A stretch of DNA of 22,489 bases, taken from a virus. Shown here piece after piece: positions 13,403-20,943 of this stretch. The notes beneath the pieces are model-generated. The model was not told where the DNA came from. It did no database searches and saw nothing but the letters and a program-made list of their open reading frames with translations. A program made the position numbers and the translations under genes. The first letter of the stretch is position 1. Every line of letters begins with the position of its first letter. The stretch is taken from positions 1 to 22,489 of the IMG/VR virus record IMGVR_UViG_3300017742_000136. The stretch is one strand, 5' to 3'.

Positions 13403-13462
13403 ATTATAGGTATATTCGCTACGTTTTGTAGCACAATTTTGTTCTACGTTTTGTATTTGGGG

Positions 13463-13499
13463 GCCCCTAGTAATTCTATTACTGGGGGCTTTTCTTTTA
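13463..13499 (+). terminator. Very strong intrinsic terminator ending the late region
   Basis: A 12-bp stem with a single G-T pair, GCCCCTAGTAAT (13463-13474) with ATTACTGGGGGC (13478-13489), has loop TCT and is followed by TTTTCTTTTA. It lies between the lysis cassette and the first early promoter, separating late and early transcription. Only the + strand has the downstream T-tract. Confidence 0.93.
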
Positions 13500-13530: not shown

Positions 13531-13571
13531 CTTGCATAGTATACTTTTTTATACTATTATTGTAAGACAAA
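13531..13571 (+). promoter_or_regulatory. Early promoter P1 with internal operator
   Basis: A Bacteroidetes-type promoter: TTG at 13532-13534, a 20-base spacer, then TATTATTG at 13555-13562 as the -7 element (consensus TAnnTTTG). The spacer carries the inverted repeat TAGTATA (13537-13543) / TATACTA (13550-13556), extended in this copy to 8 bases per arm with a 6-base centre. Repressor binding here would block polymerase. A start of transcription near 13566 would give a leader of about 22 bases before the ATG at 13588. It matches the element at 16186-16226 at 37 of 41 positions. Confidence 0.8.
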
Positions 13572-13587
13572 TACAAAACGTAATAAA

Positions 13588-13815
13588 ATGAAAAATCAAT
13601 TTTTAATTATTGGACTAACTGAGGGGACTATAGTAACTAGCGCCTGTTTAAGCTCTAGCGGTATTAGTATCGAAGAAGAATTTTTAATTCAAGAAAACCA
13701 CCTACAAACGGTAGACACTGAGGCCGAGGCTATAGAAAGGGTAGGCGAAATACTTAACGAAACGGGTAACGAATTCGAACACGGTATAACTATACGTAAA
13801 ATATGGGTAAAGTAG
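13588..13815 (+). CDS. Small early protein of unknown function, 75 aa
   Basis: This is the first gene of the early operon behind promoter P1. It is acidic and soluble. A hydrophobic strand at the N-terminus (QFLIIGLTEGTIVTSACLSS) is too short and too near Gly/Thr to be a clear membrane helix. A helical, Glu-rich C-terminal half follows. I do not recognise a family. The ATG at 13588 lies 8 bases after an AAATACAAAAC leader element. The next gene begins within its last 13 bases. First early genes in phages are often host-takeover or regulatory proteins, but nothing here shows that. Confidence 0.65.
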   Translation: MKNQFLIIGLTEGTIVTSACLSSSGISIEEEFLIQENHLQTVDTEAEAIERVGEILNETGNEFEHGITIRKIWVK

Positions 13816-14021
13816 TAGTAATAGACATAGCGGAAACTTTACCGATAGCTACGTATAAGGACCAGTATATAATTAACTGGTGGAAAAAACATGGCACAAT
13901 AAATATAACACTATACGAAAAAATAAAACTAATTAAGTACGGTACAAATGAAACAAGACGAAGAAAACTATACTATAGTCGACTGGATAAGGTACGCCGG
14001 ATATCACAAAACTATAAGTAA
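13803..14021 (+). CDS. Small basic protein of unknown function overlapping the DnaA-like gene, 72 aa
   Basis: I do not recognise this protein. It begins with a beta-type segment (MGKVVVIDIAETLPI), has a Trp-Trp-Lys-Lys motif in the middle, and ends in a strongly basic stretch (NETRRRKLYYSRLDKVRRI) that could touch nucleic acid. It overlaps the preceding gene by 13 bases and the next by 74 bases in other frames. Codon choice in the unique part (13816-13947) follows the phage's ATA/GTA habit, which favours a real gene. The basic tail is encoded in the overlap and could be constrained by the other frame. Confidence 0.5.
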   Translation: MGKVVVIDIAETLPIATYKDQYIINWWKKHGTINITLYEKIKLIKYGTNETRRRKLYYSRLDKVRRISQNYK

Positions 14022-14370
14022 CGCGCCCTACGAGTTAACCGAGGACGACCTAAAAGAGATACAAAACGAGGAATACCTAGTAACTAGATCGAGTATAAAA
14101 AGGATAGTACTAGAGATAGTAAAAGCTAATAATATTAACGACGGGACCCGTAAGCGTAAACTAGTAGACCAGCGTAGGTATCTTTACTACATACTTAAAA
14201 AGCGGGCCGGCTTTACTTATGAGGCTATAGGGTTATTATTTCATAAAGACCACGCTACAGTTATACACTCACTAAAAAAAATACAAGATTTAGACAAGGA
14301 TATAGAATATAATGAAACTATAAGCTACCTAAAAGAGTTTTTTAATAACCCTATATATATCGATTTATGA
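13948..14370 (+). CDS. DnaA domain IV-like DNA-binding protein, 140 aa
   Basis: The C-terminal half (about 75-113) matches the DNA-binding domain of the bacterial replication initiator DnaA. RRYLYYILKKRAGFTYEAIG is followed by LLFHKDHATVIHSLKKI, where DHATVIHSLKKI corresponds to the DnaA signature that contacts the DnaA box. The AAA+ ATPase domain is absent: the whole protein is 140 residues, with an unrelated acidic N-terminal 50 residues. It could mark the phage origin, recruit or compete with host DnaA, or act as a regulator. I saw no canonical DnaA box (TTATCCACA) in the window. The ATG at 13948 gives a 74-base overlap with the preceding gene and is the only ATG in the early part of this frame. 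Confidence 0.8.
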   Translation: MKQDEENYTIVDWIRYAGYHKTISNAPYELTEDDLKEIQNEEYLVTRSSIKRIVLEIVKANNINDGTRKRKLVDQRRYLYYILKKRAGFTYEAIGLLFHKDHATVIHSLKKIQDLDKDIEYNETISYLKEFFNNPIYIDL

Positions 14371-14591
14371 GTAACGAAATACAAAAAGCGTACGCGGTAC
14401 AGGTTACCGTATACTTAACGGCTAACGACGACCTGGACGCGGTACAGAAGTCTATAGAAATTAACGATATGATAAAAGAGCTAACCGGTAACGGCGCCTA
14501 TACTCATCGTATAAAAGAAATAGATAAGACTAATAAAGGTAGGCCCGTAGATTTAGTAGAAAATGTTAATAGGATACTGGCCGACAATTAA
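14367..14591 (+). CDS. Small early protein of unknown function, 74 aa
   Basis: This is a soluble, slightly acidic protein with no membrane or signal segment. It looks like a small alpha/beta fold: an N-terminal strand (KAYAVQVTVYLTA), a helix (LDAVQKSIEINDMIKEL) and a C-terminal helix (VDLVENVNRIL). I recognise no family. Its ATG overlaps the stop of the DnaA-like gene by 4 bases (ATGA-type junction), so translation is probably coupled and the two proteins may work in the same step. Confidence 0.62.
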   Translation: MSNEIQKAYAVQVTVYLTANDDLDAVQKSIEINDMIKELTGNGAYTHRIKEIDKTNKGRPVDLVENVNRILADN

Positions 14592-14613
14592 AAAAATATA
14601 TATTTAACCCCAC

Positions 14614-14624
14614 AAATACAAAAC
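14614..14624 (+). promoter_or_regulatory. AAATACAAAAC leader motif
   Basis: An intergenic copy of the shared leader motif, ending one base before the ATG at 14626. It probably aids ribosome loading in the absence of a Shine-Dalgarno sequence. Confidence 0.5.
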
Positions 14625-14625
14625 A

Positions 14626-14913
14626 ATGGATAAAACTTTCAAACAATACCACCAGGATAACCCGGAAATATACGAGGCTTTTAAGCGTATAACGTTTAAC
14701 CTTATCGACAAGGGGCGACAGTACTACGGCGCTAAGGGTATTATAGAGGTAATAAGATACCACACTATAACGGCGTCGAAAAGCTCAGCAATTACTAATG
14801 ACTTTAAGATTAATAACAACTACGCCCCGGACTACGCCCGTAAATTTATGGACGACTACCCGCAGTACTTCGGCTTTTTTAAAACTAGAGTACTAAAGAA
14901 CCTAAGACAATAA
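14626..14913 (+). CDS. Conserved-type small phage protein, 95 aa
   Basis: The sequence has a pattern I associate with a widespread small phage protein of unknown function: YEAFKRITFNLIDKGRQYYG, AKGIIEVIRYHT, then FKINNNYAPDYARKFMDDYP and GFFKTRVLKNLR. It is basic, helical and aromatic-rich, and could be a small nucleic acid-binding fold, but no catalytic motif is visible. It sits in the replication operon between the DnaA-like protein and a replication-type protein, so a part in DNA replication or its control is plausible. The ATG follows an A-rich leader immediately. Confidence 0.68.
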   Translation: MDKTFKQYHQDNPEIYEAFKRITFNLIDKGRQYYGAKGIIEVIRYHTITASKSSAITNDFKINNNYAPDYARKFMDDYPQYFGFFKTRVLKNLRQ

Positions 14914-14924
14914 ACCCCGATACA

Positions 14925-15602
14925 ATGAACAAAACAAAAAAAGAAAGTTTTTTACTATATAAAGACTTTTACCACGCTGTAAAGCATTTGAACGACGAAA
15001 CCCTAGGTAAATTATTTAGATCGTTACACGAGTACCAAATAGAAGGAATAGAGCCGGAAAAGGAAAACCCGGCCTACGTGCCTTTTATGTTTTACAGTAA
15101 CCAGTTTAGGGTAGATGATAAGAAATACCAGGCTATAGTAGAACGAAACCAGCGAAACGGCGCTAAAGGTGGACGACCTAAAAGCGAAACCCAAGAAACC
15201 CAAACGGTAAAAACGAAACCCAAAAAAGCCGATACTGTTACTGGTACTGTTACTGGTACTGATACAGGTACTGGTAAAGAAACTGTAAAGGAAAAGACTA
15301 AAAAAATAGTACTACCCTTTTCTAGCGAAAAGTTTAGTACGGCCTGGGAGTTATGGAAAAAATATAAAAAAGACCAGTTTAAATTTAGTTACAGGTCAGC
15401 CGTAACAGAACAGACAGCACTAAAAAAACTAGCCGAACTATCGAAAGGCGACCAGAAAACGGCCTTACTAATTTTAGAGCAAAGCGTAGGTAATGGTTGG
15501 GCCGGAATATTTGAACTAAAAGAAAAAACTAAACAAAGAGGCCAGGCCCCAGGGGTAGACGCCGATTATATGAACGAATTAAACCAGCGACTAAATGGGT
15601 AA
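14925..15602 (+). CDS. Replication-type protein (DUF6291-like N-terminus), 225 aa
   Basis: The N-terminal 85 residues (FLLYKDFYHAVKHLNDETLG and QYQIEG-like helix, then VERNQRNGAKGGRPK near 77-91) resemble the DUF6291 domain found at the start of phage replication proteins. A low-complexity linker (about 92-125, Thr/Gly/Lys-rich, repetitive at the DNA level) follows. The C-terminal part (about 130-200, with WELWKKYKKDQFKF and a helix ending in GNGWAGIFEL) resembles the end of phage replication initiators that recruit the helicase. Binding of origin DNA or primosome assembly is inferred. The start at 14925 lies 11 bases after the previous stop. The next gene overlaps its end by 8 bases. No ATPase motif is present. 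Confidence 0.65.
   Translation: MNKTKKESFLLYKDFYHAVKHLNDETLGKLFRSLHEYQIEGIEPEKENPAYVPFMFYSNQFRVDDKKYQAIVERNQRNGAKGGRPKSETQETQTVKTKPKKADTVTGTVTGTDTGTGKETVKEKTKKIVLPFSSEKFSTAWELWKKYKKDQFKFSYRSAVTEQTALKKLAELSKGDQKTALLILEQSVGNGWAGIFELKEKTKQRGQAPGVDADYMNELNQRLNG
15186..15275 (+). repeat. Short tandem repeats in linker of replication-type gene
   Basis: Three copies of GAAACCCAA (15186-15194, 15195-15203, 15215-15223) are followed by a 12-base unit ACTGTTACTGGT repeated twice exactly (15234-15245, 15246-15257), once imperfectly (15258-15269) and once in part (15270-15275). They encode a Thr/Val/Gly linker, and its length may vary by slippage without breaking the frame. Confidence 0.8.
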
Positions 15603-16143
15603 TATACAAAAGGCGAAAAGCCACGAGATAGCAATAATAAATAAAGAGGAATTTATACAAAAGTATGAGCCCGTACGTATGGTTATGAAGTACCGGCACG
15701 TTAATACTATAGTAAAAGCTATAGAAGAGGACAGCCAAGCGCTAAGTTTTTACGTAAAAACTTTAGGGTACGACGGCGTAAGCGCGCTAGTAGAGTTACA
15801 CCTAGTAGCGTTAAACCAGTCGGTAAACGTGGGCCAGCCTCTTAGTAAATTCCAAATAAAAGAGATAGCCGTAGAGCTATTAGCTACTTACTTCTACCTA
15901 AGCCCTGTAGAAATTAATCTAGTACTTCGTAAGATCAAAAGGGGCGACTACGGTAAGCTGTACGGCGCGCTAAATATGCCGGACTTACTAAGCTTTTTTA
16001 ATATGTACGCCGAGGAAAGGGGCCAGCACTTTATTAACGAAAGTACTAAGGACAAGCATAACGACCACACGCTAAGAAGTGAGGAAAGGAAAGTACTAGA
16101 GCGCCACGAAAAAATCATAAATAAAAACCAGCCCCCAGGATAA
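15595..16143 (+). CDS. Possible helicase-loader-like replication protein (DUF6633-like), 182 aa
   Basis: The last two thirds have a pattern I associate with a conserved Bacteroidetes phage family (DUF6633). Helices (FQIKEIAVELLATYFYLSPV) are followed by EINLVLRKIKRGDYGKLYG, then MPDLLSFFNMYAEERGQHF. Members lie beside replication genes and have been regarded as candidates for delivering the host helicase, but that role is not established. The protein is soluble and helical with a charged C-terminus. The ATG at 15595 overlaps the preceding gene by 8 bases, consistent with a joint role. No Walker motif is present, so it is not a DnaC-type AAA+ loader. The family assignment is from memory. Confidence 0.55.
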   Translation: MGNIQKAKSHEIAIINKEEFIQKYEPVRMVMKYRHVNTIVKAIEEDSQALSFYVKTLGYDGVSALVELHLVALNQSVNVGQPLSKFQIKEIAVELLATYFYLSPVEINLVLRKIKRGDYGKLYGALNMPDLLSFFNMYAEERGQHFINESTKDKHNDHTLRSEERKVLERHEKIINKNQPPG

Positions 16144-16185: not shown

Positions 16186-16226
16186 CTTGCGTAGTATAAT
16201 ATTTTATACTAGTATTGTAAGACAAA
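16186..16226 (+). promoter_or_regulatory. Early promoter P2 with internal operator
   Basis: The second copy of the promoter-operator module: TTG at 16187-16189, a 20-base spacer, -7 element TAGTATTG at 16210-16217, then GTAAGACAAA as in P1. The spacer holds TAGTATA (16192-16198) and TATACTA (16205-16211), 6 bases apart. Compared with P1 only 4 of 41 bases differ: two fall in the spacer centre, and two are at the matched positions just outside the arms. Predicted transcription start is near 16221, giving a leader of about 26 bases that contains four CAAAA units (16223-16242). Confidence 0.8.
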
Positions 16227-16246: not shown

Positions 16247-16732
16247 ATGAAACTTTACACCCACAAAAAACTAATAGAAAAGGCGACCGCTATACTAGAG
16301 GTAATAGCCGACGCTGAGCGACGTATAAAAACGCGCGAGGTAAACCTAAAAAAGTACCAGGTATTTACTGGGCTAGTAGAAAAGTATAAACAGGATAACG
16401 AAAATACTAAGCTAGCTAAGGCCCGCCTAGAAAGTTACTATAATAATACTATTTTAAAAATACAGGAAACTATACTAGGAGATCGAAATATAAACGAAAA
16501 TATAGACGCTATAGAAACGTATAACACTGTAAGCGCTGAGGACCTAGAAACTACTGTAAGAGTATTATACGTTACTACTAGTAAGTTAAAGGCTGAGGAA
16601 AAAAAAGAATATCACGAATTTAAGCGTACAGGTAAAGGTATTAATTTTGATAACGTTAACGGCTTTAGAGATTCGGGCAACATATTAGCCAGCGCTATAA
16701 ACCTTATACTAAATTACAGCAATGGAAAATAG
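16247..16732 (+). CDS. Coiled-coil early protein of unknown function, 161 aa
   Basis: This is a highly charged helical protein with likely coiled coils at about 8-75 (LIEKATAILEVIADAERRIK to TKLAKARLESYYNNTILKIQ). A second helical part follows, with a basic segment EEKKEYHEFKRTGKGINF near the C-terminus. It has no membrane segment. I do not recognise a family. It is the first gene behind promoter P2, ahead of the recombination genes. I chose ATG 16247 over an in-frame TTG at 16187, because that TTG is the -33 element of P2 and would lie upstream of the transcript start. A 59-residue gene overlaps its last 11 bases. Confidence 0.7.
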   Translation: MKLYTHKKLIEKATAILEVIADAERRIKTREVNLKKYQVFTGLVEKYKQDNENTKLAKARLESYYNNTILKIQETILGDRNINENIDAIETYNTVSAEDLETTVRVLYVTTSKLKAEEKKEYHEFKRTGKGINFDNVNGFRDSGNILASAINLILNYSNGK

Positions 16733-16901
16733 ACAACTAAACAAAGAAATAAACGTACTAAGCGATAGGCTAGCCCGTTTAGTCGAAAGGTTTAACCGTA
16801 GCTATAATATGACTATCGCCGTAGAGATAACAGAAACCCGTAGACTATTAAGGGAAAAAAAGGAAAAACTGGCCCAGGTAGAAACCGTAGGCCCATATTA
16901 A
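16722..16901 (+). CDS. Small coiled-coil protein, 59 aa
   Basis: This is a short gene (ATG 16722, stop TAA 16899-16901) overlapping the preceding gene by 11 bases and followed 18 bases later by the ERF gene. The product is almost entirely helical and charged (start MENRQLNKEINVLSDRLARL, later EITETRRLLREKKEKLAQ), consistent with one coiled coil. Codons follow the phage's ATA/GTA/CTA habit. Without it the interval before the ERF gene would be an unexplained 187-base gap. Function unknown; a partner of the coiled-coil protein upstream or of the annealing protein is possible. Confidence 0.68.
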   Translation: MENRQLNKEINVLSDRLARLVERFNRSYNMTIAVEITETRRLLREKKEKLAQVETVGPY

Positions 16902-16906
16902 CAACC

Positions 16907-16917
16907 AAATACAAAAC
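16907..16917 (+). promoter_or_regulatory. AAATACAAAAC leader motif supporting GTG start
   Basis: The motif ends two bases before the GTG at 16920. Its presence at the same place as in other genes supports this non-ATG start. Confidence 0.5.
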
Positions 16918-16919
16918 AA

Positions 16920-17597
16920 GTGAAAAACGAAAAGCAAAACGATAAACCGGCTAACCTGGTAGACGCTATTAACTACGTAATGAGTAAAGCTAGAAACGTA
17001 GAAAAAAACCTAACAGTAGGTACTGGTAATAATTCGTACGCCGGCGTAAGCGATAAGGACGTAAAGGAACTACTACAGCCGTTACTGGTAGAGGCTGGCC
17101 TAGTAATATTACCTATAGGTATAGAGCCTACCGTAACAGTGGACCGCTGGGAGGAAAAGGGTATATTATACGGTAAAGAGGTTATACGGCAAAAAATGAG
17201 AGTATTAACCGAGACGAAAGTAACCTATAAAATAGTACATACTAGCGGGCAAAGTATGGAATTAATGAGCTACGGCCACGGTATAGACACCCAGGATAAA
17301 GCACCAGGTAAGGCCACTACGTACGCATTAAAGTATTTACTACTTTATACTTTCTTAATACCTACCGGACAAATAGACGACGCCGATAATAAGGCTAGCG
17401 AACCTACTACGGTACCAGTAGAAAAGAAACATATAAGCCCCGAAAATTTTACTAAGGCCCTAAACCTGGTAAGGTCCGGTAAATTTACGGCCCAAAAAGT
17501 AAACGACCAGTACAAGCTAGAAGAGGACCAGCTAACAGAGCTAAACTATTTAGCTAATGAATTAAACGCAAATAAAAAAATAGATGCTAAAAATTAG
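16920..17597 (+). CDS. erf: ERF-family single-strand DNA annealing protein, 225 aa
   Basis: It anneals complementary single strands during phage recombination, as P22 Erf does, working with a 5'-3' exonuclease. Family features in order are: an N-terminal helix (LVDAINYVMSKARNVEKNL), a Tyr-containing loop and helix (NNSYAGVSDKDVKELLQPLL) near 38-58, a beta-sheet core, the Gly/His segment LMSYGHGIDTQDKAPGKATT (about 118-137), and YALKYLLLYTFLIPTGQIDDADNK (about 138-161). The rest is a charged helical tail. The start is a GTG at 16920 preceded by an AAATACAAAAC leader; the next in-frame ATG would cut into the N-terminal helix. Its 3' end overlaps the exonuclease gene by 14 bases, so the two are very likely a functional pair. 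Confidence 0.88.
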   Translation: MKNEKQNDKPANLVDAINYVMSKARNVEKNLTVGTGNNSYAGVSDKDVKELLQPLLVEAGLVILPIGIEPTVTVDRWEEKGILYGKEVIRQKMRVLTETKVTYKIVHTSGQSMELMSYGHGIDTQDKAPGKATTYALKYLLLYTFLIPTGQIDDADNKASEPTTVPVEKKHISPENFTKALNLVRSGKFTAQKVNDQYKLEEDQLTELNYLANELNANKKIDAKN

Positions 17598-18456
17598 ATC
17601 AAGTAGCGTAGGGTATTTAATGACAAACCCACGCGGTAAGAGTAACCTAGAAAAGTATAACGAGGCGTTAATAAAATTAGCTAGTAAACAGAAAAGACTA
17701 GACGGGCTAGGCCCAAAGGCTGAGGTAAGCCGTAATAAATTAACTAACATAGAAATACCAGCTATTGAACAATTAATAAAACAGCTAGAGCCAGTAAAGG
17801 ACGAGGTAATACTAAGCGAAACAGCTAAGGAGTTAATAGTACGTACCTACTGGGAAAACGAACACGGTATAAAAAAAGAATTTACTAGTAAATACTTTGA
17901 TAAAGGAAACGACGCCGAGGACGTAAGTATAGAACTGGCCCAGCGAGTTAACGGCTGGGACGCCCAGGCCCATAATAATAAGGGGTATAAAAACGAATAT
18001 ATAACAGGTACCCCGGACCTAGTATATAAGGAACTTATACCGGATATAAAAACTAGCTGGACCGCTTTAAGCTTTCCACTATTCGAAAAGGAACTACCTA
18101 ATGAATTATACTACTGGCAAATACAAAGCTATTTAGCTTTAACCGGGCGCGAAATGGGGGTAGTATCTTACTGTTTAGTCGATACGCCCGAGCTTTTAGT
18201 AATGGACGAAATATATAAGTACGCTAGAATTAACGGGCTAATAGAAACGCCGGCCGAGGCTGAGCTAGAAATACGCCACGCCCATAACTACAGCCGACTA
18301 CCCGAGGCTATGCGAGTTAAAAACTTTTATATAGAGCGAGATGAGAGCGCTATACAAAAAATATACGAGCGAGTAGAAAAGGCTAGGCTATTCTATAACG
18401 ACCTTTTAAGCCTCGACAACTGGCGAAACGTATACCGCTTAAAGTCAGTAGATTAA
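17584..18456 (+). CDS. YqaJ / lambda-exonuclease-like recombination nuclease, 290 aa
   Basis: It is a PD-(D/E)XK-fold nuclease predicted to resect DNA ends for the annealing protein encoded just upstream. The active-site pattern is complete: an acidic helix KGNDAEDVSIELAQ (Glu112 and Glu117 as candidates), ITGTPDLV with Asp145, DIKTSW with Asp154 and Lys156, and YYWQIQSYLALTG with Gln179 and Tyr183. An extra helical N-terminal stretch (about 20-80) precedes the core. ATG 17584 overlaps the annealing gene by 14 bases, consistent with translational coupling. Codon bias is extreme here: 18 of 21 Ile codons are ATA and 13 of 16 Val codons are GTA. Confidence 0.88.
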   Translation: MLKIRSSSVGYLMTNPRGKSNLEKYNEALIKLASKQKRLDGLGPKAEVSRNKLTNIEIPAIEQLIKQLEPVKDEVILSETAKELIVRTYWENEHGIKKEFTSKYFDKGNDAEDVSIELAQRVNGWDAQAHNNKGYKNEYITGTPDLVYKELIPDIKTSWTALSFPLFEKELPNELYYWQIQSYLALTGREMGVVSYCLVDTPELLVMDEIYKYARINGLIETPAEAELEIRHAHNYSRLPEAMRVKNFYIERDESAIQKIYERVEKARLFYNDLLSLDNWRNVYRLKSVD

Positions 18457-19077: not shown

Positions 19078-19104
19078 AAAGGGCCAGGATATACCCGGCC
19101 CTTT
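19078..19104 (+). terminator. Intrinsic terminator ending the P2 operon
   Basis: The stem AAAGGGCC (19078-19085) pairs with GGCCCTTT (19097-19104). The loop can be tightened by pairing GG (19087-19088) with CC (19094-19095) around ATATA. The T-tract after it (TTTACTTACC) is weak, so read-through is possible. Eighteen bases of it recur exactly in a gene at 20304-20321. Confidence 0.72.
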
Positions 19105-19295: not shown

Positions 19296-19314
19296 TTATA
19301 CTAACTTAGTATAA
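19296..19314. promoter_or_regulatory. Perfect 19-bp palindrome before the HTH gene
   Basis: TTATACTAA (19296-19304) and TTAGTATAA (19306-19314) are exact reverse complements around one C. The arms contain the same half-sites TATACTA and TAGTATA that form the operators in P1 and P2, but back to back. A second, degenerate pair in the P1/P2 spacing (TAGTATA at 19307-19313, TACACCA at 19320-19326) overlaps it. It is 31 bases before the ATG of the helix-turn-helix gene, as expected for autoregulation. Confidence 0.65.
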
Positions 19315-19345
19315 AATTTTACACCATAAAAAACCTAATTAACAA

Positions 19346-19561
19346 ATGGAAAACGGAAATAATACGCCGGCCTTTGTATCTACTGAGGACCGAGTAAAGG
19401 CCACGATATATAACTTTTGCGTAGAAAATGGGCTAAATTATTCTAAGCTTTGCGGGTTAGCTGGGGTAAATAAAAATATATTATATCCTTTTATGAACGG
19501 TAAAAGGTCGATAACCCTAAGTACACTAGAAAAAATAGAGCGCTTTATATATGAATACTAG
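19346..19561 (+). CDS. Small helix-turn-helix regulator (XRE/Cro-like), 71 aa
   Basis: The product is about the size of a Cro-type repressor. After a 12-residue polar N-terminus, helices follow in the order expected for the lambda repressor-like fold. VKATIYNFCVENGLNYSKLC is helix 1 to 2, and LAGVNKNILYPFMNGKRSIT is helix 3 with the G-x-R-x-I-T turn. STLEKIERFIYEY is the last helix. There is no dimerisation or protease domain. It lies directly after the 19-bp palindrome that shares half-sites with P1 and P2, so it is the leading candidate for the protein that binds them. Its stop overlaps the ninG start by 11 bases. Target and effect (repressor or activator) are inference. Confidence 0.75.
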   Translation: MENGNNTPAFVSTEDRVKATIYNFCVENGLNYSKLCGLAGVNKNILYPFMNGKRSITLSTLEKIERFIYEY

Positions 19562-20370: not shown

Positions 20371-20943
20371 ATGAAATTCGACGAATATATAAGGCTAGAG
20401 TACGACGACCTACTAAAAATAGCTACCGGTATATATGGTAGGACAAAATTAGACCCCGCCGAAGTACTCAGCGAGTTATATATAGACGTTAGAAAGCGAG
20501 ATATAGAGCCAACTAGAAACGATTATAGAAAGTACTGTATACGCTGGCTAAAAAACGCTACCTATTGGCAAGGTGGAAACCCTGTAAAAAAGCTATATAT
20601 AAAAGAACAAATAAACCATAAATACAAGGAAAGGCAAATAGATATAATAAATACGCCCGAGCTTAACGGGTCCGAAACTGTAAAGGACCTACAGCGGGTA
20701 GGCTTTACCGAGGAACAGGGCGAAAACTTAGAGAGATGTATAGACGCCAGTAAGAAACTACCACTATACTACCGTAGGCTTTTCGAATTATACTATATCG
20801 AGGGTTACAGCTTAAAAGAAATAGCCGATAGCATAGTTATAACCGATAACCAAAAAGGACCCAGGACTATACCAAAAGTAGCGATACACCGAGACGTTAA
20901 AAGCGTAGTAGCTGAGGTACAAAAAATTTTAGAAAATGAGTAA
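20371..20943 (+). CDS. Sigma-70 region 4-like transcription factor, 190 aa
   Basis: The C-terminal 65 residues (LPLYYRRLFELYYIEGYSLK, EIADSI, then PKVAIHRDVKSVVAEVQKIL) form the helix-turn-helix layout of sigma region 4. The first helices precede an insertion (VITDNQKGPRT), and the recognition helix follows. The N-terminal half (LDPAEVLSELYIDVRKRD, then YCIRWLKNATYW) has a loosely sigma region 2-like pattern, but the polymerase-binding signature is weak. A role as a phage-encoded sigma factor or late-gene activator fits its place near the end of the early region. ATG 20371 is 3 bases after the preceding stop. The next small gene overlaps its end by 8 bases. Confidence 0.7.
   Translation: MKFDEYIRLEYDDLLKIATGIYGRTKLDPAEVLSELYIDVRKRDIEPTRNDYRKYCIRWLKNATYWQGGNPVKKLYIKEQINHKYKERQIDIINTPELNGSETVKDLQRVGFTEEQGENLERCIDASKKLPLYYRRLFELYYIEGYSLKEIADSIVITDNQKGPRTIPKVAIHRDVKSVVAEVQKILENE

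Follow-up and report, generated by a model that had tools for sequence, protein, structure and literature searches.

A conserved putative promoter-operator module at the head of the replication and recombination operons of a phage, with a candidate cognate regulator

Genes and signals of the locus

The window, meaning the whole stretch of DNA that was analysed, is a viral record 22,489 bases long, and all the genes identified in it lie on the + strand. Its left part contains tape measure, portal and endolysin genes. After the late genes follow a terminator-like stem, the P1 operon, the P2 operon, a second stem, a gene for a small helix-turn-helix (HTH) protein, NinG, and a gene for a protein resembling ECF sigma factors. 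The contents of the two operons were assigned by HMM matches.

13463 to 13489, + strand: terminator-like stem of the late operon, before P1 (GCCCCTAGTAAT-TCT-ATTACTGGGGGC, then TTTTCTTTT), read from the sequence and aligned in all three phages considered below
13588 to 16143, + strand: P1 operon, with small ORFs, a DnaA domain IV protein and a DUF6291/O-like replication protein
13948 to 14370, + strand: DnaA domain IV protein, 140 amino acids, mainly this domain (Bac_DnaA_C, E 1.5e-10)
14925 to 15602, + strand: DUF6291/O-like replication protein (DUF6291, 2.8e-21; replication initiation O-like, 1.5e-8)
16247 to 18456, + strand: P2 operon, with small ORFs, an Erf-like annealing protein and an exonuclease
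16920 to 17597, + strand: Erf-like annealing protein (phrog_155, 4.3e-21; Pfam ERF, 3.5e-11)
17584 to 18456, + strand: exonuclease (phrog_5715, 9e-45)
19078 to 19104, + strand: terminator-like stem (AAAGGGCC-N11-GGCCCTTT) between the P2 operon and the regulator region
20371 to 20943, + strand: ECF-sigma-like protein, 190 amino acids (Sigma70-ECF, E 1.1e-9, below the cut-off)

The initial annotation placed the two copies of a 41-base module at the heads of operons for replication and recombination, and this is borne out by the HMM matches to DnaA domain IV and O-like proteins behind one copy and to Erf and exonuclease behind the other. The DnaA domain IV protein is 54% conserved in both relatives. 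It was considered as the regulator of the module and rejected, given that its KDHATV signature points to DnaA boxes and no match to a DnaA box was found within the window. The ECF-sigma-like protein, judged from its sequence and position, is probably a late-gene sigma factor. The six (fragmentary) phage records searched yielded neither a tyrosine integrase nor a resolvase.

Some smaller features accompany these genes. A stem resembling that at 19078-19104 is present in two records of the related phages (L007 at 10217, L004 at 5430). The direct repeat ACGTTTTGTA occurs at 13421-13430 and 13446-13455, ahead of the late terminator and P1, and is largely kept in all three phages. The A-rich motif AAATACAAAAC lies immediately 5' of several start codons (13569-13579, 14614-14624 and 16907-16917) and may serve as a signal for translation initiation, given that this phylum lacks Shine-Dalgarno sequences.

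The repeated module and its conservation

The module comprises a predicted promoter and an inverted repeat, the putative operator, and is found before each of the two operons.

13531 to 13571 and 16186 to 16226: the two module copies, read and compared directly
13532 to 13562, + strand: promoter P1, with TTG at 13532-13534, a 20-bp spacer and TATTATTG at 13555-13562; predicted start at about 13567-13568 (from the sequence, the -33/-7 rule of PMC6847099 and orthology)
13537 to 13556, no strand assigned: operator dyad O1, TAGTATA-CTTTTT-TATACTA (from the sequence and the conservation of the arms)
16187 to 16217, + strand: promoter P2, with TTG at 16187-16189, a 20-bp spacer and TAGTATTG at 16210-16217; predicted start at about 16222-16223 (from the sequence and orthology)
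16192 to 16211, no strand assigned: operator dyad O2, TAGTATA-ATATTT-TATACTA (from the sequence and the conservation of the arms)

Direct comparison of the two 41-base copies confirms the 37 identical positions of the initial annotation, and the likeness spans 47 nt at 87% identity. This pair is the top 41-mer self-match of the whole window, whereas six second-order Markov sequences as long as the window reach only 29-30 matches in their best pairs, and the agreement is far above chance. The sequence TAGTATA-N6-TATACTA occurs in the window exactly twice, at O1 and O2, against an expectation of 0.0 per window. If any arm sequence is allowed, perfect 7-N6-7 dyads are no rarity (6 in the window versus 2.6 expected), so that a lone dyad would prove little; the evidential weight is carried by the repetition and the conservation, not by the dyad as such.

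In promoters of F. johnsoniae, T at -8 is nearly invariant, G at -10 almost never occurs, and the start lies 4-5 nt from the box (PMC6847099). Both window copies have A at -8, and the P2 copy has G at -10. With respect to the Bacteroidetes primary-sigma box TAnnTTTG (-12 to -5), the upstream TTG is present, and TATTATTG, TAGTATTG and, in the related phage B, TATATTGT are each off consensus, being of the form TAnnATTG in the window and phage A and TAnnTTGY in phage B. The TTG, 20-base spacer and TA-N-TATTG box previously described are all present, although the boxes are imperfect and the exact TA-N-TATTG is lost in phage B. Transcript starts had been placed near 13566 and 16221, and the 4-5 nt rule moves both by one or two bases, to the predictions listed above. 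The dyad does lie between the -33 TTG and the -7 box, as annotated, except that the final TA of its right arm doubles as the TA of the box. A second dyad near the start, TTGT-AAG-ACAA (13560-13570), is accounted for by the -7 TTG and the leader ACAAA. The reading of the module as an RNA hairpin was also rejected, because the operator dyad is upstream of the predicted start and the module would thus act as DNA, not RNA.

Related phages were identified by a search with the Erf protein, which is independent of the motif and gave L004 (76% identical), L006 and L007 (both 68%) and weaker matches of 42-52%; L003, L005 and L016 were added through motif searches. All the phage records are fragments, and they were grouped by overlap into phage A (L003, L004 and L005; L003/L004 overlap by 95 bp at 100%, L005/L004 by 876 bp at 99.5%) and phage B (L006, L007 and L016, more than 99.8% identical). 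Orthologues of P1 are found in L003/L005 and L006/L007/L016, and those of P2 in L004, L006, L007 and L016, such that the module is kept at both promoters in both phages. In the six copies from the three independent phages (window, A and B), all 14 arm columns are invariant, which agrees with the earlier statement that the differences spare the 7-base arms, while five of the six centre columns vary and the length of the centre is always 6 (CTTTTT, ATATTT, GATTTT, CAATAT and CAATTA are the centres in the alignment). The difference in variability between arms and centre gives a Fisher p of 4e-4, a value to be read with caution since the copies share ancestry. Because the arms are invariant while most of the spacer columns vary, this alignment indicates that selection acts on the dyad.

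Phage B adds to this, given that one base has been lost between the right arm and TATTG at both of its promoters, which changes the box from TAnnATTG to TATATTGT. The class of the box has shifted with the arms intact, and the dyad therefore appears to be constrained separately from the promoter. The gene behind P1 in phage B is a different one, unrelated to the first gene of the window, yet the module is retained. The predicted P1 start in this phage coincides with the A of an ATG (L007 5334-5371), which suggests that the transcript could be a leaderless mRNA.

Relatives with the same genes had been expected to carry the inverted repeat; it is kept in the close relatives A and B and is absent at the P1 position, the stretch after the late genes, of a more distant relative (L044, portal 60% identical). 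The weaker Erf relatives have no such module in the DNA examined. A blastn search of the whole region against named phages gave no match, and an Erf search of genomes and an HTH search of named phages gave no additional relatives. Two further motif matches were discarded: L015 is a prophage region of the Firmicutes type that has a longer dyad of its own, placed between repressor genes, and L017 is unrelated.

A third site, the candidate regulator and the control proposed

19297 to 19326, no strand assigned: site O3, TATACTA-ACT-TAGTATA-AAATTT-TACACCA, directly upstream of the HTH gene
19346 to 19561, + strand: Cro/C1-type HTH protein, 71 amino acids (Pfam HTH_26), candidate regulator

Site O3 had been overlooked in the initial annotation. 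It consists of an everted pair of half-sites and a decayed inverted pair, and no recognisable -33/-7 promoter is found there. When an operator matrix built from the six copies was run across each record, the match at 19307-19326 reached 20.5 bits, the best in the window after O1 and O2; in the Markov control, the median best score was 11.5 bits and 1 of 60 random sequences exceeded 20.5. The orthologous site of phage A (L004) also scores 20.5 bits and likewise ranks next. That of phage B (L007) ranks third with 13.1 bits, which is not significant alone against the random median best of 11.5, and it is outscored by a 14.4-bit site elsewhere on the phage B contig, outside the L007 stretch (L021 19799). 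O3 is nonetheless aligned in all three phages; its everted pair is free of mismatches in the window and in L004, and has one mismatch in L007. Lone half-sites occur often in this AT-rich genome (32, with 25 expected).

Wherever a record has an HTH_26 match, the protein encoded next to O3 is the only one. In the window it scores E 2.9e-4 and 21.5 bits, just under the cut-off of 22, and the L007 orthologue scores 23.6 bits, which is above it; the match to HipB(Lp) (8ezt) has an E of 1.4e-4. It has 71-75 amino acids over the three phages and shares 94% and 73% identity with its counterparts in the two relatives. The core of helix 3 (NKNI.YP) and the last 17 shared residues (SITLSTLEKIERFIYEY) are, like the arms, identical in all three. 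The AlphaFold model of the window protein is poor (mean pLDDT 57). On these sequence grounds, the HTH protein is the best candidate for the regulator.

We consider it fairly probable that P1 and P2 are promoters of a Bacteroidetes siphophage used by the host polymerase, each with an operator that is bound by a dimer, and that they are shut in a Cro-like manner by an HTH protein that controls itself. Host RNA polymerase would read P1, for the replication operon, and P2, for the recombination operon. The symmetry and conservation of TAGTATA-N6-TATACTA suggest that each operator takes one dimer, with one subunit per arm. Because this dimer would fill the interval from -33 to -7, and cover the TA of the -7 box as well, its binding is expected to exclude RNA polymerase and thus to repress. 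The HTH protein would be this dimer, and it probably regulates itself through the operator variant upstream of its own gene. After entry, the early genes would start, the HTH protein would build up, and both operons would be shut as the late genes take over. The Cro-like role is likely because the HTH gene comes after the P2 operon and no integrase was detected. The earlier proposal that the arms are bound by a protein, and that one regulator serves two operons, gains support from the dyad being present at both orthologous promoters in two phages, and one viral protein probably switches the replication and recombination genes together, on or off. A bolder version, which is possible but rather doubtful, is that this one tiny HTH protein uses two half-site layouts, the inverted one to shut two promoters and the everted one (TATACTA-N3-TAGTATA) at its own gene, and that such a Cro-type switch, lacking a C1 partner, sets the timing of an exclusively lytic cycle in Bacteroidetes; no lysogeny genes were detected in the phage records examined, which are fragments.

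The dyad might instead be the site of an activator, made by phage or host, with a weak -7 box that needs a protein bound in the spacer as in MerR-like regulation, which we regard as unlikely. Its position centred between -33 and -7 would suit such a role, although the 20-bp spacer is in the usual range for promoters of the Bacteroidetes class and not specially long. Early promoters must moreover fire when no phage protein has yet been made, so that an activator would have to come from the host, and no MerR family protein turned up in the six phage records; the deviation of the -7 boxes from TAHHTTTG at near-invariant positions (PMC6847099) does speak for this reading. It is quite improbable that the operator is the site of a host regulator borrowed by the phage. 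A scan of 84,980 species genomes for the arms returned 18 scattered matches, none of them a relative, of which seven have the G6 centre TAGTATA-GGGGGG-TATACTA (L026, L029, L031, L032, L035, L038 and L040). The two of these that were examined precede cellular genes of the CsoR/FrmR type (L031 before frmR-frmA-like genes, L026 before a CsoR-like gene), as a borrowed site would suggest; the phage centres are, however, A/T-rich, only 1 of the 18 matches is in Bacteroidota and that one is without a TATTG box, and the phage owns a candidate with an operator-like site adjoining.

An alternative sigma factor, perhaps the phage protein at 20371-20943, could also read P1 and P2, the conserved sequence then being mostly promoter. 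The Sigma70-ECF match of this protein and its 74-77% conservation are in line with this, and the phage B box TATATTGT fits the SM5 motif (TAnnTTGY), which in F. psychrophilum has been ascribed to an alternative sigma factor (PMC9723704). We still find it very unlikely, given that a site recognised by a sigma factor is not expected to be a perfect two-fold dyad whose centre is free to vary, that the dyad stays the same from phage to phage while the class of the -7 box does not, and that the gene is on the packaging side, followed by terminase in L004/L007, as expected of a late-gene factor. There is only a very slim chance that P1 and P2 are alike only because an ordinary promoter, functionless dyad included, was duplicated recently. 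The two are alike within each relative (85-86% over 59-80 bp), and the copies are perhaps partly homogenised, but a comparison of the phages shows invariant arms amid changing flanks and centres; the two promoters appear older than the split of the phages, because P1-like and P2-like upstream flanks persist in every one of them.

Comparison with known systems

The nearest named phages found are Nonlabens P12024S and P12024L (Inhavirus), which infect Flavobacteriia; their exonuclease and portal are 38% and 26% identical, and the order endolysin, Erf, exonuclease, sigma-like protein and terminase is similar. None of the promoter-like sites listed for P12024S contains such a dyad, and the site at 16257 has only ACTTGCATAGTA in common, with an ordinary TACATTTG box. 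The TTG, the 20-bp distance and the TA...TTG box resemble promoters of the Bacteroidetes primary sigma (TTTG/TAnnTTTG) and SM5, which phage B matches; the host promoters differ in not being defined by a dyad in the spacer, and the window and phage A differ from them by the A at -8.

Judged by the letters of the operator, the closest known element is the CsoR/FrmR type 1 site, whose arms can be identical to those of the phage; even TTGCATAGTATA at the left edge is shared by L026, L031, L035 and L040. Type 1 sites of CsoR/RcnR are defined by a 3-8 bp G/C tract flanked by AT-rich arms (PMC3902906, PMC5146963). The assignment to this class was rejected, since the phage centres are without a G/C tract, and neither a PF02583 gene nor any other sign of a CsoR-type regulator was found in the phage records.

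The sequence comparisons argue that the promoter-operator module is real and conserved, and a cognate regulator is plausible. In a limited literature search, no operator-regulator pair was found described for the early genes of a Bacteroidetes phage. If the proposal is right, a 41-bp module and a 71-amino-acid protein would form a compact pair, a possible repressible promoter for a phylum with promoters unlike those of E. coli, and a simple case of co-ordination of replication and recombination in a phage without detected lysogeny genes.

In lambda, the promoters PL and PR serve recombination and replication genes and contain the dyad operators OL and OR, on which Cro acts. The arrangement described here is similar in having two promoters, for recombination and for replication, a dyad operator inside each, and a small Cro/C1-type HTH candidate. 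Neither a C1 repressor nor an integrase nor a divergent immunity region was found in this phage, and an immunity region of the lambda type was set aside, given that there is one dyad per promoter, all the identified genes are on the + strand, and the divergent layout with three operators is absent. It differs from lambda in that the promoters point in the same direction and have one operator each in place of three, the regulator gene is downstream of the P2 operon, and the promoters are of the Bacteroidetes class. This kind of control is already known, and its occurrence here is new.
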